A stretch of DNA of 64,000 nucleotides. Source: SAR202 cluster bacterium bin90. GTDB lineage: Bacteria > Chloroflexota > Dehalococcoidia > Lucifugimonadales > JADFKI01. Every line of letters begins with the position of its first letter. Positions within the stretch are counted from its first letter, which is position 1. Under the pieces are notes generated by a model. It had not been told where the DNA came from. It worked only from the letters and a program-made list of their open reading frames with translations, and did no database searches. The stretch is from contig MPND01000012.1 in NCBI GenBank assembly GCA_002238855.1, forward strand, positions 1-64,000, read 5' to 3'. Shown piece after piece: positions 23,937 through 31,851 of this stretch. The translations under genes were made by a program, and so were the position numbers.

Positions 23937-25034
23937 ATGACCACACTTCAGAACGAATCCCTGCAAGGCATCAAGGACTACGCCGACGACTACGATCTTG
24001 ACCTTTCGTGGTTGGACACGCGAGGCGAGTGGGGTATTAAGGCTGAACCCGACGCCAAGCGCGGCATGACCCTCTCCAGCATCGAAGTCGGCTCCTATGG
24101 CGAGGCCCCTGACACCACCGACAATATGACCGGCAGGCCCCGCGGCGCAGCCAAACGTCCCGACTCCTACCGCATCGGAGGCTACGGCGTCCGCACCAAG
24201 TCCGAAATCTGGCTCGACAACGCAGCGGCACTCTACGAAGAGTCACTGCAGCGCCAGTGGAGTTCAGCGACTGACATCCCTTGGCACACCATTACTCCCC
24301 TCCCCGACGACATCGAGCGCGCCCAGTGCCAGCTCGACACATTCCTAACCGAAGTCGAATTCGTCGCGGCAGACATCCCGGCTCGCTGGGTCGCAACCAC
24401 TAGTCCCGACTACTTCGAGCCGCGCATGTTCCTCCTCTCCCAGATCATGGACGAATCGCGCCACCTCGACGTCTTCCGCAAGCGCGCCCTCGCCAACGGC
24501 GGCGGCCTCATGCAGCGCCCCGACATCACCACCAGCGGCGTGGTCGGCAGCATAGACCTCTCCCGCGAGTTCACGGAAATGTCCTCTCGCCTGCACATCT
24601 CAGGCGAAGGCGCGGTCTTGACGCTCTTCCGCATGGGCGAGCTGATGTCATACAACGAAGCCGAAAAGCGCATCTACCGCCTCGCAGCGCAGGACGAGTC
24701 CCGCCACGTAGCATTCGGCGTGATGCACATGCGCTACCTCTCCGAGTCCGAGCCGGAGCGCCGCGAAGAAATCCACTGCTACCTCGACGAGGGTGAGCGC
24801 GGACTCCTCGCCGGCAACCAGAACCCGGCAGCCATCGACACCCCCAGCAGCGAGGCAATGGCAATCCTGCTAGGCGGAGGCACCAAGGGTTACGACGAAG
24901 GCGCGCGCAAGCTAATGGCTATCCGCCGGCGGCAGGTCCGCGAGTACGTCCAACGCATCCGCTCCGCAGGCTTCGGCGAACGCTTCGACAACGGCCGCGC
25001 CGACCCCCGCCTCATGGAAATCATGTGGACCTAA
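23937..25034 (+). CDS. Ferritin-like diiron protein with intact predicted metal ligands
   Basis: LTEVEFVAAD ... DESRHLDVF ... HISGEGAVL ... DESRHVAFG: two ExxH motifs and two helix Glu positions; ATG at 23937. Confidence 0.7.
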   Translation: MTTLQNESLQGIKDYADDYDLDLSWLDTRGEWGIKAEPDAKRGMTLSSIEVGSYGEAPDTTDNMTGRPRGAAKRPDSYRIGGYGVRTKSEIWLDNAAALYEESLQRQWSSATDIPWHTITPLPDDIERAQCQLDTFLTEVEFVAADIPARWVATTSPDYFEPRMFLLSQIMDESRHLDVFRKRALANGGGLMQRPDITTSGVVGSIDLSREFTEMSSRLHISGEGAVLTLFRMGELMSYNEAEKRIYRLAAQDESRHVAFGVMHMRYLSESEPERREEIHCYLDEGERGLLAGNQNPAAIDTPSSEAMAILLGGGTKGYDEGARKLMAIRRRQVREYVQRIRSAGFGERFDNGRADPRLMEIMWT

Positions 25035-25088
25035 CCCCGTTAACAATTCCTTACCCTCGGTGGATTCATAGCGGTAGGTGTAAACTAA

Positions 25089-25412
25089 GTGACAGTCGGC
25101 GCAAATAGAACAATAGCATTAATTCTTACGGCGATTGTACTGTATTTGTTTTTGGTCTATTTTGGGATAGGAATTGTAATTGCATTTCTATATGTGTTGT
25201 TTGCCTTATTGTCAGCGCCATCGATAGTGGTGGCTTATATAGAGGAATTGCTAGAGTTCTTGTCTTTTTTTATAGTCGCCGGTGTAATCTTTTGGCAGAA
25301 AGATAGGATATGCTCCCTACTTCGCACCGACTCATGGTTTGGAGCATCATCCAGAGCCAAGAAAATGGCAGACGAATCGGCAGAAAAAGAAATGACAAGC
25401 AAATCTGAGTAG
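25089..25412 (+). CDS. Small membrane protein, unknown function
   Basis: GTG start; strongly hydrophobic N-terminal half with charged C-tail; AT-richer than the surroundings. Confidence 0.5.
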   Translation: MTVGANRTIALILTAIVLYLFLVYFGIGIVIAFLYVLFALLSAPSIVVAYIEELLEFLSFFIVAGVIFWQKDRICSLLRTDSWFGASSRAKKMADESAEKEMTSKSE

Positions 25413-25424
25413 AAATAGGACACG

Positions 25425-26534
25425 ATGGCAGACAAAACCCAAGACCAAGACCAGACGTTGCAGGCATCCGCCGCCCGCGTAACCGAGCGCGAAGCCAGCG
25501 ACGATGATACCGAAGAAGTCGAAATCGCTCCGCCCAATCTGGCATGGATGAAGAACACCCTCCAGTGGGGCACACGCGCGAAGCCAACCAAGAACGGCCT
25601 GACCATTGACGCCCTCAACATCGGCGTTTACGGCGATGTCCCCGACTTCTGGGACGACCAGACCCGCAAGCCGAGAGGCGCATTCCCCGTTCCCGGCATC
25701 GCGCCGCTCGGCTTCGAAGTCCGCGAAAAGCGCGAACTCTGGGCTGACAACGCCGCCGATCTCTACGAAGAGGCAATCCAGCGTCGCTGGGCGCCCGCCA
25801 CCGACATCCCCTGGGACACAATCCAGCCCCTCCCCGACGATGTCGAGGCCGCGATGTGCCAGCTCTGCACCGAGCTTTCCCAAATCGCCAGCGTCGAGAT
25901 CGAAGTCATAGGCGGCTGGCAGCAAAAGCTCTCCTACGGCTTCCACGAGGTCAAGCTCTTCCTCGCCACCCAGATGTTCGACAACGCCCGCCACTTCGAG
26001 GCATTCCGCAAGCGCGCCCTCTCCAACGGCGGCGGGCTCGGCCTTGAAAGCAAGGGCGAAGTCAACCGCATGCTCCTCGAAAGCACTGGCGGCTGGCCCG
26101 AAACCGTAGTCATGCTCCACATGCTGCGCGGCACGTTCACCTTCACCCTCTACCGCTACGGTGAACTCTTCGCCCACAACCCCGCCGAGAAGGTGCTATT
26201 CGCCCGCTGCATGCAGGACAAGGCACGCCACCTCGCCTACGGCCTCGCTCACCTGCGCTACGCCACCTCGCACAACCCCGACAAGGCGATCGTCTTCGGA
26301 CGCCTTATGGGCATCGCAGAGCGCGTCTTCGAGCGCGAGCTCAACGACCCCGTGCTTAAGGAGGCGCTCGCCATCATCTTCGGCGGCGGCATCGAGGGCG
26401 CACGCAGCGGCATGCGCCAGTACGAGCGCATGATGGGCGACTTCGCCCGCCAGTACCTCGCCAACATGGAGCACATCGGCGTGCCCCGCGAAGCAAGCTT
26501 TTCGCCTACCCTGGCAAAGTTCATGGAGGCTTAG
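25425..26534 (+). CDS. Ferritin-like paralog with degenerate predicted diiron site
   Basis: Aligns with 23937-25034 product (LWADNAADLYEEAIQRRWAPATDIPWDTIQPLPDD) but DESRH becomes DNARH and DKARH. Confidence 0.75.
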   Translation: MADKTQDQDQTLQASAARVTEREASDDDTEEVEIAPPNLAWMKNTLQWGTRAKPTKNGLTIDALNIGVYGDVPDFWDDQTRKPRGAFPVPGIAPLGFEVREKRELWADNAADLYEEAIQRRWAPATDIPWDTIQPLPDDVEAAMCQLCTELSQIASVEIEVIGGWQQKLSYGFHEVKLFLATQMFDNARHFEAFRKRALSNGGGLGLESKGEVNRMLLESTGGWPETVVMLHMLRGTFTFTLYRYGELFAHNPAEKVLFARCMQDKARHLAYGLAHLRYATSHNPDKAIVFGRLMGIAERVFERELNDPVLKEALAIIFGGGIEGARSGMRQYERMMGDFARQYLANMEHIGVPREASFSPTLAKFMEA

Positions 26535-26537
26535 TCA

Positions 26538-26984
26538 GTGCCACAGTTTCCATCCGTAGAGTGGTTCGAGCAGGTACGCGAAATCTTCAACGGCGATGAG
26601 TCCTATCAGGAAGCGGGCGGCGGCATGTGCGACGCCACCATGGGCATCAAGGTCGCCGAGAACGCTTACATCGTCGTCTTCGAGGGCGACGAATGCTCCG
26701 AAGTCCGCGAAGTCCCCGAACCCGACCTCGCCGAGGCCGACTTCTACCTCGAAATGGCCTCCGAAGAGTGGCAGGACATGATCCGCAACATCAAGGACAA
26801 CGGCAGCGCAGACCTGGACCACACGCTAAACACGCTCGACATGGACAGATTCGAGGGCCTCGCGCTCACAATGAACGGCGACCAGTACCGGCAGGACTTC
26901 TTCTACCGCTTCAACCAGACCTTCCAGTACTTCTTCGACGCCTCAGCCCGCATCGACACCGAATTCACCCAAGACGCAGGATAG
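26538..26984 (+). CDS. SCP2-like (sterol carrier fold) small protein
   Basis: PSVEWFEQVREIFNGDESYQEAGGGMCDATMGIKVAENAYIVVFEGDEC; SCP2-like pattern. Confidence 0.6.
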   Translation: MPQFPSVEWFEQVREIFNGDESYQEAGGGMCDATMGIKVAENAYIVVFEGDECSEVREVPEPDLAEADFYLEMASEEWQDMIRNIKDNGSADLDHTLNTLDMDRFEGLALTMNGDQYRQDFFYRFNQTFQYFFDASARIDTEFTQDAG

Positions 26985-26989
26985 TAAGC

Positions 26990-27412
26990 ATGCCCGAATT
27001 CCCATCCATCGAGTGGTTTGAAGCTGTGCGCGACAGCGCCAACGCCGACTCCCAGTTCACATCCCAGGGTACCGTGAACTGCGTCATGGGCGCTAAGGTC
27101 GGCGATTCCGCATTCGCCTTGATTTTCGAGGGCTTCGAATGCGCCTCAGTCGAGGCAATCCCTGAAGGCGCACTGCGCGACCTCGATTTCTACATCGACC
27201 TGTCCCCTACCGAGTGGCGCGAACTGCTCGACAACATCTCCGCGAACGGCGGCTCAGACTCCGCCCACACCCTCAACACGCTCGATCTGACAATGCCAAC
27301 CGGCTGCGTAAAGTCCGACAACGAACTGCGCCGCGCCGCCTTCTTCCAGTACCACCTCTCCCTGCAGGCATTCTTCGACGCCTCGGCAAGTGTGGAAACG
27401 ACGTACGCCTGA
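26990..27412 (+). CDS. SCP2-like small protein (paralog of 26538-26984)
   Basis: MPEFPSIEWFEAVRD...VNCVMGAKVGDSAFALIFEGFEC...HTLNTLDL; ATG at 26990. Confidence 0.6.
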   Translation: MPEFPSIEWFEAVRDSANADSQFTSQGTVNCVMGAKVGDSAFALIFEGFECASVEAIPEGALRDLDFYIDLSPTEWRELLDNISANGGSDSAHTLNTLDLTMPTGCVKSDNELRRAAFFQYHLSLQAFFDASASVETTYA

Positions 27413-27441: not shown

Positions 27442-27726
27442 ATGCCCATTTACGAATACAGATGCGACGGCTGCAATCAGAAGTCAGACTTGCTTTGGCG
27501 CAATTTCTCGCCGCCTGATGCAATCGAGTGCAAGAGTTGCGGCACCGATGAAACGCACCGCATAATATCATCTGTCGCTCTGCGCAAGACCGTAAAGACC
27601 CAGATGTCGGAGCTGGACTCGAAGTACGACAGAATGCTCGACGCCGCCGACGCCAGCAACCCTCGCGCCGACCCCAACTACTACCTCAACAAAGCAACCC
27701 CGCTAAGTGAGGGCGTTCCTGATTAA
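27442..27726 (+). CDS. FmdB-like zinc ribbon protein
   Basis: MPIYEYRCDGCNQKSDLLWRNFSPPDAIECKSCGTDETHRIISSVALRK. Confidence 0.75.
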   Translation: MPIYEYRCDGCNQKSDLLWRNFSPPDAIECKSCGTDETHRIISSVALRKTVKTQMSELDSKYDRMLDAADASNPRADPNYYLNKATPLSEGVPD

Positions 27727-28139
27727 ACGGGCATCCTCAGCCTCGCCACGAGTTCTGCCACCCGCCTCTCCACCTCACCGCGGATAACCCGCACCTCGGA
27801 TATATCCTTGCCGGCAGGATCCGGCAGTCCCCAGTCCTCCACGTTTTGCAGCAGCAGTGCGGGGCACGCCTGCGCGTCCACCGCGCAGCCCATGGTGATG
27901 ACTCGTTGTGCCTGCCCCACAGCCTCATTTGTCATAAGGCGCGGCTTGGCTCTGCGGATGTCTATGCCCACTTCCCGCATTGCCTCTGCGACTATGTGGT
28001 GAACGCGCTTCGCAGGCTCCGTTCCGGCAGACTCAGCCCTTAACGAGATACCCGACTCTTCCGCCAATCTGTTGAAGAAAGCCTTCGCCATCTGGCTGCG
28101 CCCGGCATTGTGGACGCACACGAAGAGTATGTCGCTCAT
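27723..28139 (-). CDS. arsC: Arsenate reductase, low-molecular-weight phosphatase family
   Basis: ILFVCVHNAGRSQMAKAF active-site loop; MGCAVDAQACPALLLQNVEDWGLPDPAGKD. Confidence 0.88.
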   Translation of the reverse strand: MSDILFVCVHNAGRSQMAKAFFNRLAEESGISLRAESAGTEPAKRVHHIVAEAMREVGIDIRRAKPRLMTNEAVGQAQRVITMGCAVDAQACPALLLQNVEDWGLPDPAGKDISEVRVIRGEVERRVAELVARLRMPV

Positions 28140-29044
28140 TCCATGCCGTCCTGCGCACTTGATGCAGGTTCGTAGTCCGCAAGGGCCTCAGCGGAGCCGT
28201 TCCGCGGCAGACTGTCTTGATGCTCTGAGGGTAGCCCGGGCCTCAGCAGAAACTCATGCACCCCCGCTCCGATTGGCGCACCGACCAGCGGCCCCACGAT
28301 GTACGCCCAGAATCCGCCCGTCACTCCCGGTAAAACGATGCTTCCCCAGCCTGCGAAATATCCCACAATGCGAGGCCCGAAGTCCCGCACCGGATTCCAG
28401 CCCGCATGCGTCAGCGGCCCAAATACGCCTATCAATATAGCAACCGTCAGGCCAACAATGAGAGGCGCAAGAGCCTGGTTAGGCAGCGCGGCGTTTCGCC
28501 TGTCGAAGACGGAAAAGATAACGAATGCGAGAATTGCCGTCCCGAAGCCTTCGATAGCTGCGGCGGCTGGCGCAGACAGCAAGGAGCGCGCAGCCTCGTC
28601 TATGCCGAACAAGCCCGGATCCGGAAAGTGCTTGCTGAATATCATCCCCGAGTATTCGCTGCCAGCCGCGCCGCGCGTGAGGCCATTCACCCTTTCCAGG
28701 CGTTCAATTAAAGGCGCAAATATGACAAGAAGCGTCAGTCCGGCCAGCACAGCACCAAGAAGCTGTGCGCCCCAATAAGCGAACATTCTACCGAGCGGAA
28801 ACTCTCGCCGCCGAAAGATGGCGAATGCGAGGCTGATTGCGGGATTGAGATGAGCACCAGATATGGCGACGGTAGCGTAGATTCCAATGGTAACGCCAAA
28901 TCCGCCTATGAATCCGACAGGCCACAAGCCGAGTGCCCCGCCCGTGACCACATCAGTAGCCACCGCTCCTGCGCCGAACAGCACCAGTATGAATGTGCCT
29001 ATCGCCTCGGCCGTTAGAGCGCGTCCAAGTTGCATACAGTTCAT
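28136..29044 (-). CDS. MIP family aquaporin / glycerol facilitator
   Basis: SGAHLNPAIS and GWNPVRDFGPR (NPA and second NPx half-helix), EAIGTFILVLFGAGAVA. Confidence 0.88.
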   Translation of the reverse strand: MNCMQLGRALTAEAIGTFILVLFGAGAVATDVVTGGALGLWPVGFIGGFGVTIGIYATVAISGAHLNPAISLAFAIFRRREFPLGRMFAYWGAQLLGAVLAGLTLLVIFAPLIERLERVNGLTRGAAGSEYSGMIFSKHFPDPGLFGIDEAARSLLSAPAAAAIEGFGTAILAFVIFSVFDRRNAALPNQALAPLIVGLTVAILIGVFGPLTHAGWNPVRDFGPRIVGYFAGWGSIVLPGVTGGFWAYIVGPLVGAPIGAGVHEFLLRPGLPSEHQDSLPRNGSAEALADYEPASSAQDGME

Positions 29045-29227: not shown

Positions 29228-30139
29228 TTAGATGGCGTAGGACTCGATCATGTTCTCCACCTTCCGGGAGAAGGACTTTTCATTGATGATATCGATGCGG
29301 TCCTGGAAGGAGGGCCTGTTGCTGTCCTTGTATATGACGCCAACCGGAACGCCACCTTGGTTGACAAGCTCGTGGGCGGCCTCATAGTCGCTGGGGTCGT
29401 GATGCTCCGGTATGTCCCACGCGAGCGGCGGGATTCCCTGCCGCACATTGCCCTTCAACTCCATGAATGTGTTGTTGTAGGTCGTGCAAGGAGACTGCAC
29501 ATGCACGATTGAGAAGCCTTCGTGGTCCATCGCGTCCGCAATGACGGCGCCCAAGTCCCTCACTTTAGTGGATACATGCGAGGCTATGTACGAGACACCG
29601 AGTGTCAGGTAGAGTGCGAGCGGGTCCAATTGAGCTTCAGGCTTGCCGTACGGCGTGGAACTGGTGACCTCTTCGAACTTGGTCGTGGGTGAACTCTGTC
29701 CCTTTGTAAGTCCGTAAACGGCGTTATCCATTATTACTACAGTCACATCGAGATTTCGCGCGGCCTGTGGCGCAATATGCTCATTCCCGATGCTCAGGAA
29801 GTCGCCGTCGCCCGCTATGACGATCACAATTTGGGCCGCGGGGCCCGCGCCGGCGCCCGCTACGACGATCACATTGAGGTCCGGACGGCCCATCTTGACG
29901 CCCAGCGCAATTGGAAGCGATCTTCCGTGAATGCCGTGGAGTCCGTATGGCTGTGGTCCTTCAAGCAGATGCACCATGTTGCCGGAGCAGCCAATGCCCG
30001 CAACAATAACATTGTTCTCGACGGGCAGTTCGGTCTCGACCCTGCGCTTGTCAATGGCGGCTTCCAGGGCACGTCTTACTCCGAAGTCACCGCAGCCTGG
30101 GCACCACTTGAAGTCATATTCCGGATTCTTGTCGCTCAT
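29228..30139 (-). CDS. 2-oxoacid:ferredoxin oxidoreductase beta subunit
   Basis: WCPGCGDFGV, GIGCSGN, GDGDFLSIGNEH, YGLTKGQSSPTT. Confidence 0.9.
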   Translation of the reverse strand: MSDKNPEYDFKWCPGCGDFGVRRALEAAIDKRRVETELPVENNVIVAGIGCSGNMVHLLEGPQPYGLHGIHGRSLPIALGVKMGRPDLNVIVVAGAGAGPAAQIVIVIAGDGDFLSIGNEHIAPQAARNLDVTVVIMDNAVYGLTKGQSSPTTKFEEVTSSTPYGKPEAQLDPLALYLTLGVSYIASHVSTKVRDLGAVIADAMDHEGFSIVHVQSPCTTYNNTFMELKGNVRQGIPPLAWDIPEHHDPSDYEAAHELVNQGGVPVGVIYKDSNRPSFQDRIDIINEKSFSRKVENMIESYAI

Positions 30140-31851
30140 ACTGTTATGCTCACTTTCTGCTCTTGTTCTAGGCGCTCAACAATTCGGCCTGCAAGCTCAC
30201 CAACCTTGAAGGGGAGCCCGGTGTACTGCGTGATTGACTCTGCATTCACACCCTGCGAACGCAGGACGCTTGAGAACTGGCCCAAGTAGTTGAGCTCGGG
30301 CACGAGCACCAAGTCCTTTTCACGCAGTTCTTCGAGAAGATCCACCGGCAAGGGATTGAGGAACATCGTGTAGTACCAGCCAATGTCCATGCCGCTGTCC
30401 AGGACGGATTCATAGGCACCCTGCGCCGGGCCCTTCGAACCGCCCCAGGGCATAAGCGCAATGCTGGCGTCCGTATTGCGGCTCTCGTAGTCTTCGTTCT
30501 CCAACAGCTTCAACTTGCTGAAACGTCGCTCTGTCATCTGGATGTGGCGCTCCGGAAGATGGGTCGTGTCACCCATGCCGTCATGCTCGCTGCCGTTTGC
30601 GACATAGCTGCCGGGGCCACCCGGTAGAGGCATCGGCGACAGCTCCCAACTGTCGTATCGCTGGTAGCCGTTGCTGCCAGTGTAAGTCTCGCGCTCTTCT
30701 ATCTCAAGATTGCTCAGGTCAGGCTTAGGTATGTTCTGCTTCCGCTCGGAGAGCATGTGCTCGCTGAGCATGATGACAGGTCCCTGGTAACGTTCCGCCC
30801 AGTTGAAAGCCATGGCCCCTGCGTAGAAGCACTCTTCAACTGTACCTGGAGCGATGATTGGCATACTGACATCACCATGTCCCGGAGTCAGAGCCATAAG
30901 CAGATCTGACTGTTCCGTCTTTGTGGGAAGTCCGGTCGAAGGTCCGCCGCGCTGCACATCAACGACCACCAGCGGAACTTCCGCCATCCACGCCAGCCCA
31001 AGTCCTTCGCCCATAAGGGACAGCCCCGGACCGGCAGTGGCCGTCATAGCCTTCTGTCCGCCGTAGCCTGCGCCCACAAGGGCGTTAATGGCCTCAATCT
31101 CGGAGCTCGCCTGATACACGAACTTGCCCTCGCCCGTGAGGTTGCGCTCCATCCAGAGAAGTATTGAAGTTGCGGGGGATATTGGGTATCCAATGTAAAA
31201 TCCGATACCGGCAGCGCATGCTCCGAGCGAGATTGCCTCGTTGCCGTTTACCAGAATCTGCTCTCCCTCCGGCATTATCGGCGGTGCTAGCTCTCCAAGA
31301 CTGAAGCCACTCTTCTCGGCCTCCTGCCTGCCAAGTGTCAGTGCAACGATGTTGGAGGAAATTATCTGCTCGTCGTTCGGTCGGCCCCTGGTGAATCGCG
31401 CCCTTACGAAATCCTCCAGAATGCTCTGCGACATGCTCACCAGGTGGGCAAGTGCGCCGAGCACAATCATGTTTTCGGCTCGTGCGTTTCCGGTTGACTT
31501 AGCAAGATCGGCGAATGGCATGCCGAAACTATTTGCTAGGTCATCAGGCTCGAAATCGCCCGAGTTGTAAATAATGACGCCGCTGTCGCTTACTTCGTCT
31601 CTGTGGTTCTGGTACGCCTCCTCATTGAAGCAAACCAGCACATCGATATTATCGCCCGAACTGAGGACGGGCGTAGTCGCGAGACGCGCCTGCGACATAA
31701 CGGGCCCTCCCATAATCTGGGATGGGAATGTGACGAATGTCTGCACATAGTAGCCCACATTGCTTGCGGCTTCCGCAAGCCCTTCGGACGAGGTAACCAT
31801 GCCTTGTCCGCCTTCTCCGGCAAATCGCACTACAAAATCGGTCTTTTGCAA
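30136..31851 (-). CDS. 2-oxoacid:ferredoxin oxidoreductase gamma-alpha fused subunit
   Basis: FAGEGGQGMVTSSEGLAEA (gamma domain) then GNEAISLGACAAGIGFYIGYPISPATSI (alpha). Confidence 0.9.
   Translation of the reverse strand: MQKTDFVVRFAGEGGQGMVTSSEGLAEAASNVGYYVQTFVTFPSQIMGGPVMSQARLATTPVLSSGDNIDVLVCFNEEAYQNHRDEVSDSGVIIYNSGDFEPDDLANSFGMPFADLAKSTGNARAENMIVLGALAHLVSMSQSILEDFVRARFTRGRPNDEQIISSNIVALTLGRQEAEKSGFSLGELAPPIMPEGEQILVNGNEAISLGACAAGIGFYIGYPISPATSILLWMERNLTGEGKFVYQASSEIEAINALVGAGYGGQKAMTATAGPGLSLMGEGLGLAWMAEVPLVVVDVQRGGPSTGLPTKTEQSDLLMALTPGHGDVSMPIIAPGTVEECFYAGAMAFNWAERYQGPVIMLSEHMLSERKQNIPKPDLSNLEIEERETYTGSNGYQRYDSWELSPMPLPGGPGSYVANGSEHDGMGDTTHLPERHIQMTERRFSKLKLLENEDYESRNTDASIALMPWGGSKGPAQGAYESVLDSGMDIGWYYTMFLNPLPVDLLEELREKDLVLVPELNYLGQFSSVLRSQGVNAESITQYTGLPFKVGELAGRIVERLEQEQKVSITV

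Follow-up and report, generated by a model that had tools for sequence, protein, structure and literature searches.

A ferritin-like protein with a predicted dimetal site, its carboxylate-less sister and a linked small protein in a SAR202 cluster bacterium

Results

Gene content of the locus

The window analysed here is a stretch of 64,000 nucleotides from SAR202 cluster bacterium bin90 (contig MPND01000012.1). The genes that concern us lie together on its forward strand:

23937..25034 (+), gene A: ferritin-like/R2-like protein, 365 aa, with a complete predicted dimetal ligand set
25089..25412 (+), open reading frame of 107 aa between A and B, probably outside the system
25425..26534 (+), gene B: 369 aa, paralogous to A, with substitutions at all four carboxylate ligand positions
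26538..26984 (+), gene C1: conserved partner of ~148 aa (FPSVEWF family), linked to B, tentative SCP2-like fold
26990..27412 (+), gene C2: a further C gene, sharing about 40% identity with C1, found in the window genus and in relatives from its order
27442..27726 (+), gene D: FmdB-type zinc-ribbon protein, 94 aa, with two CxxC knuckles

The sequence-only reading of this DNA had singled out A and B as adjacent paralogous open reading frames. Both are present, they align in a single block of 326 residues (37% identical, E 2e-74), and the four motif pairs quoted in that reading are all exact; the window genome holds no copies of A or B beyond these two. Gene C, which is tightly linked to B, and gene D are parts that the reading had not covered. 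The 107-aa frame was considered as a member of the system and rejected because it is not conserved: in the near relatives L118, L003 and L005 the space between A and B is shorter and lacks it, and the homologous stretch in L011 has an in-frame TGA. D scored 19.5 bits against NCBIfam TIGR02605 (E 8e-4), below the curated cut-off of 31.3, and is linked to A-B in the window's own lineage and in families f18, f41 and f147.

Neighbouring genes in related loci encode a P450, a luciferase-like monooxygenase, an SDR, a CoA transferase III, an enoyl-CoA hydratase, a thiolase and an MFS protein, which is a setting of organic-compound oxidation; no reductase gene was found among the conserved neighbours of A-B loci. 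By eye, the reverse strand of the window carries a low-molecular-weight arsenate-reductase-like gene beside an aquaporin-like gene (27723-29044), resembling arsenic detoxification pairs, and, downstream of the operon, the alpha and beta subunits of a 2-oxoacid:ferredoxin oxidoreductase (29228-31851). Among close relatives, 0.9-1.8 kb of additional sequence separates A from B or C1 from C2 (L120:8083-9881 and L122:6910-7844). One assembly (G659, contigs C4 and C5) holds identical A-B-C-C-D stretches near two contig ends (L003 and L004; CATQHF010000005.1 and 000004.1), either a recent duplication or an assembly overlap.

An intact ligand set in A

Gene A has a predicted R2-type ligand set (E141, E173, H176, E224, E254 and H257). 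To follow these positions we used a ligand table of 108 family members from fetched loci, 57 with the pattern EEHEEH and 51 without; the set was intact in 57/57 A-type relatives. The helix-1 ligand is best placed at E141, the second Glu of LTEVEF, as it is invariant in all intact homologues, even distant lone relatives; at E139, by contrast, certain homologues with an intact set have Gln or Val. When the A-family profile was compared with the VlmB homologue 6d9f, the DExRH motifs and the helix-3 Glu were in register, as were the ligand motifs in part against R2lox, and this register against solved structures supports the predicted assignment.

A profile of A homologues matched 6d9f/8wvr with an E-value of 1.2e-10 and R2lox structures with ~1e-5, but a profile of B homologues matched nothing convincing. 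Neither protein gave a Pfam match at E<=1; Ribonuc_red_sm was weakly matched by 8/23 A homologues (best 1.4e-4). Against NCBIfam NF006200 (R2-like ligand-binding oxidase), A gave an E-value of 1.5e-7 and B one of 1e-4, both far under the cut-off. The AlphaFold2 model of A had a pLDDT of 62.6, with core helices mostly at 70-90 and ~100 unreliable N-terminal residues; in Foldseek this model of moderate confidence matched R2lox, VlmB, MMO alpha and PaaAC at probability 1.00 (E about 0.002-0.03). Judged by predicted ligands and modelled four-helix bundle, A would belong to the ferritin-like dimetal carboxylate superfamily. With no Pfam family for A, B or C, and with NCBIfam matches far below cut-off, the system goes without a name in standard annotation.

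Could A and B be the heteromeric R2 subunit of a class I ribonucleotide reductase (RNR)? Yeast Rnr2/Rnr4 is a known precedent for such an intact/degenerate pair, A is R2-like by profile, and the whole genome has no recognisable NrdB or Ribonuc_red_sm match. Yet no NrdA was noticed near any A-B pair, A/B are missing from most genomes of the class (see below), and their linkage is to C, not to RNR. The radical Tyr position (H176+4) is an invariant Phe180, although class Ic R2 proteins also have Phe there. With the genome's only RNR large subunit on another contig, F180 at the radical position and no Ribonuc_red_sm match for A or B, we rejected this identity as highly improbable.

Loss of the carboxylates in B

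The residues of B aligned to the A ligands are A155, N187, H190, G236, K266 and H269. All four carboxylates have gone (E141->A155, E173->N187, E224->G236, E254->K266) and the counterparts of both A histidines, H190 and H269, are retained, exactly as had been read from the sequence. Of the two Glu behind the "Q/A" entry for the first motif, the ligand is the second, which became A155. A complete set was found in 0/51 B-type relatives, so the restoration of carboxylates in most B homologues, which would have pointed to recent decay or error, did not occur. B thus lacks the metal ligand set of the ferritin-like dimetal carboxylate superfamily. No intermediates between intact and degenerate sets were seen among the 108 family members, and the split of 57 intact against 51 degenerate homologues is far from chance.

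The residues at the six former ligand positions vary by B lineage (ANHGKH, AAMNRM, GSIGIK, AVQNVQ, NAHDKH, GAKKSH), and conservation of the N/G/K substitutions, a possibility that the sequence-only reading had raised, did not hold. Several lineages have lost both histidines, for example those with AAMNRM, GSIGIK and AVQNVQ. A B-wide replacement metal site was looked for across the 51 B proteins, and no shared residue set emerged. Because the substituted residues vary between lineages and the histidines are lost in some, a substitute metal site in B is unlikely, which disfavours the suggestion that B is differently metallated. An active B that binds another metal or cofactor at the altered site would fit with the H190 and H269 kept in the window lineage, and with the one Glu or Asp that some B proteins retain at ligand positions; without a six-position residue set common to B proteins, and with both histidines lost in several lineages, we consider it improbable.

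Both genes are under purifying selection, with dN/dS of 0.07-0.29 for B and 0.03-0.18 for A. The absence of all four carboxylates might also be read as a decaying duplicate or an assembly error. This explanation, to which we give a negligible probability, is refuted by conservation: the same state recurs in 51 relatives from many independent assemblies, in full-length reading frames with the dN/dS values just given, and on these grounds a recent pseudogene was rejected. B also has conserved residues of its own where A differs (S170, G172, K177 and E192), and these could be an interface. In families f32, f73 and f79 (L155, L156, L015-L041), the open frames that hold B-type proteins run to about 400-625 aa; their upstream portion may be an N-terminal extension or just open frame.

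Duplication and co-divergence of A and B

In our tree, 50 B proteins grouped together (SH-aLRT 99), as did 52 A proteins (95), and the two clades were sisters; four intact relatives that stand alone, and the pair from G030, lay outside both on long branches. The sister clades indicate that A and B arose by a single ancient duplication, that B lost the site and that both lines then diversified in parallel. In 41/41 assembled neighbouring pairs, which were partly drawn from loci picked because adjacency was visible, B lay after A on a shared strand, and the gap was mostly -68 to 265 bp. Several genomes contain more than one A-B pair (three in G020; two each in G060, G212, G025 and G056), from which it follows that the genes duplicate as a pair. 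The A and B distance matrices correlate (mirror-tree r = 0.89; the highest value among 2000 permutations was 0.34), a co-divergence that also reflects shared vertical descent, and partner swaps between paralogous pairs of one genome (G020, G060, G025, G056) always reduced r. B evolves about 1.6 times as fast as A. Natural A-B fusions, which would have been proof of interaction, were absent from the first loci examined.

Linkage and fold of C

Family C proteins, of about 140 aa, had no convincing match in Pfam or NCBIfam. C adjoins B in 29/29 top-scoring B loci and sits after it in most of the large fetched loci, so that its linkage to B is tighter than that of A. A class-wide profile search for C gave 115 genomes, of which 110 also have A (present in 116); the Fisher p for this co-occurrence, about 1e-81, ignores the relatedness of the genomes. 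In families f36 and f49, C is present elsewhere in the genome and stands alone (L251:8042-8476, L252:8221-8661, L253:7018-7587, L256:2537-3070). A similar ORF of ~160 aa (MPDREGALKAREFLFLCEDLAL...) adjoins C in L252 and L253.

The AlphaFold2 model of C is of high confidence (pLDDT 93). Its most coherent Foldseek matches were the SCP2 proteins UbiJ and AF1534 (probability 0.90-0.98, TM <=0.62, E 0.05-0.27), and the Pfam SCP2 model was matched by 1/21 C members (E 0.1). Sequence proof failed, as the hhalign profile-profile score of C against SCP2 sequences was no better than shuffles. On its modelled fold, C may tentatively be called SCP2-like.

Distribution and limits of the pairing

Among 393 genomes of the class, relatives were found in 117 with B as the query and in 116 with A, and about 70% of the genomes lack A/B. 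The carriers are sponge- and ocean-type Chloroflexota bacteria, and the window's named relatives are Dehalococcoidia MAGs. Contig contamination is unlikely, because the genus mates G656, G658 and G659 carry the same pair, with B about 90% identical. A phage or plasmid origin of the pair was rejected: there was no phage match, viral contigs hold just distant ferritin-like relatives, and the plasmid collection gave two distant matches alone, at about 25% identity. In another class of the phylum, two loci (L134 and L135, from G521 and G535) have an A-B-D-C operon; their A and B both nest in the tree beside family f41 of the window's class, and this suggests that the whole module may have moved by horizontal transfer.

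Adjacency is not universal. Among the 29 highest-scoring A matches, a selection blind to adjacency, 13 had B within 1.5 kb and 16 had no adjacent B, and A lay within 1.5 kb of B in 8 of the 29 top B matches. The two genes are usually apart in the genome in the f32, f73 and f79 lineages, and lie on separate contigs in G245, G279 and G254. In three loci (L258, L259 and L260) an intact A-type gene stands directly before, or overlaps, C with no B; this may be the same system in homodimeric form, and A may act alone in places. A-B is therefore not obligate everywhere, and the obligate heterodimer of the sequence-only reading was too strong a claim. Its proposal of a non-catalytic partner, possibly in a heterodimer, is by comparison well supported, if indirectly, by the duplication, gene order, co-divergence, selection and lack of a replacement site. 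The co-occurrence of intact and degenerate copies that it looked to was also borne out, as nearly every checked genome with B has A; the exception, G234, is 76% complete.

These data bear on a further explanation, in which B has taken on a separate function, as a new enzyme or as a binding protein together with C, and has given up contact with A, their adjacency being a relic of tandem duplication. B is indeed always beside C in f32, f73 and f79, where it is unlinked from A, and its faster evolution and own conserved residues would agree with a separate role. Yet A-B order and adjacency have been kept in many distant lineages, the pairs were duplicated together with each B tracking its own A, and, among the genomes checked, B hardly ever occurs without A. 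We regard an independent B as unlikely, though it is the alternative to which we give most weight.

Discussion

We consider it probable that these genes encode an uncharacterised heteromeric oxygenase or oxidase, with A as its catalytic dimetal subunit, B as a structural partner free of metal and C as a substrate or docking component. A and B would be two subunits of a dimetal (Fe/Fe or Mn/Fe) enzyme whose O2 chemistry would be carried out by A, the bearer of the only metal site. B, born of one ancient duplication of A, would be structural, forming a heterodimer with A and docking C. C is small and probably binds a hydrophobic ligand; it may offer up a lipid-like substrate or control entry to A. 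In the lineages that have it, D may donate electrons in the manner of a rubredoxin or serve in assembly.

If true, this would constitute an extra case of dimetal oxygenases recruiting a metal-dead sister subunit, and the deep record of paired duplications would allow the co-evolution of the dead subunit to be followed. It would also add a candidate oxygenase for marine and sponge-associated Chloroflexota. SAR202 bacteria have been proposed to oxidise recalcitrant compounds such as sterols via flavin enzymes and P450 (PMC5395668, PMC6946804), and the words "ferritin" and "diiron" are absent from the main texts of both papers. No relevant account of an R2-like heterodimer, or of a ferritin-like enzyme from SAR202, came out of our searches of the open-licence literature. 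As far as these searches reach, this type of arrangement is known, while the A/B family, with a duplication of its own and a link to C, is undescribed there.

Comparison with known systems

R2lox, a family with a Mn/Fe cofactor, is both the nearest curated family of A by sequence and the top fold match of A. Its ligands (E69, E102, H105, E167, E202 and H205) surround a site at which a long-chain fatty acid is bound (PMC6060897), and A has the same ligand order, E, ExxH, E, ExxH. However, A scored 31 bits against the R2lox model, where the cut-off is 194, which places it outside the family, and the Val-Tyr cross-link of R2lox (V72, Y162) is absent, the corresponding residues by register from E69/E167 being A144 and L219. 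To our knowledge, no degenerate partner has been described for R2lox. The best PDB profile match of A is with the VlmB azoxy synthase and AurF-type N-oxygenases, with the ligand motifs in the same register, but identity in the structure match is just about 17% and A itself has no Pfam match to AurF; we know of no metal-less partner or C-like protein in that family.

Bacterial multicomponent monooxygenases combine an intact alpha subunit with a ligand-less beta paralogue and a small accessory protein. A/B likewise include a metal-less paralogous subunit, but the resemblance is in working only: MMO has weak profile similarity to A (E 0.2), A and B are smaller, neither matches the Phenol_Hydrox-type alpha/beta Pfam models, C was not identifiable as a coupling protein and no linked reductase was seen. 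Since A has its closest relative in B, and B in A, their duplication appears separate from that of MMO. In PaaA/PaaC, a catalytic diiron subunit and a same-fold structural subunit form a heterodimer, bridged by the small PaaB (PMC4498308). PaaA/PaaC/PaaB are thus like A/B/C in having a metal subunit, a metal-less sister of the same fold and a small third protein. A and B nonetheless gave no match to the PaaA_PaaC Pfam family and stand outside it, no PaaB or PaaE-like reductase was seen in the loci read, and B is closer to A (37% identity) than PaaC is to PaaA (17%). By the tests made, A and B appear to belong to none of the R2lox, VlmB/AurF, PaaA/PaaC and MMO families.

For C, the nearest fold is that of SCP2 (UbiJ), although the SCP2 profile comparison did not place it in that family. 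UbiJ has been proposed to hold lipid intermediates for hydroxylases (PMC9499169). By analogy, the fatty acid of R2lox and the lipid role of UbiJ suggest that a hydrophobic substrate may be brought by C to A, with B as the scaffold. More tentatively, and with rather more doubt than confidence, A-B-C(-D) might represent an undescribed class of multicomponent dimetal oxygenase, separate from the methane/toluene monooxygenases and the PaaA-type epoxidase, in which a metal-free sister would scaffold an SCP2-like carrier, and the dimetal site would receive from this carrier hydrophobic substrates resembling sterols, hopanoids or fatty acids. Such an enzyme could aid the oxidation of recalcitrant organic matter by Dehalococcoidia/SAR202-type bacteria.
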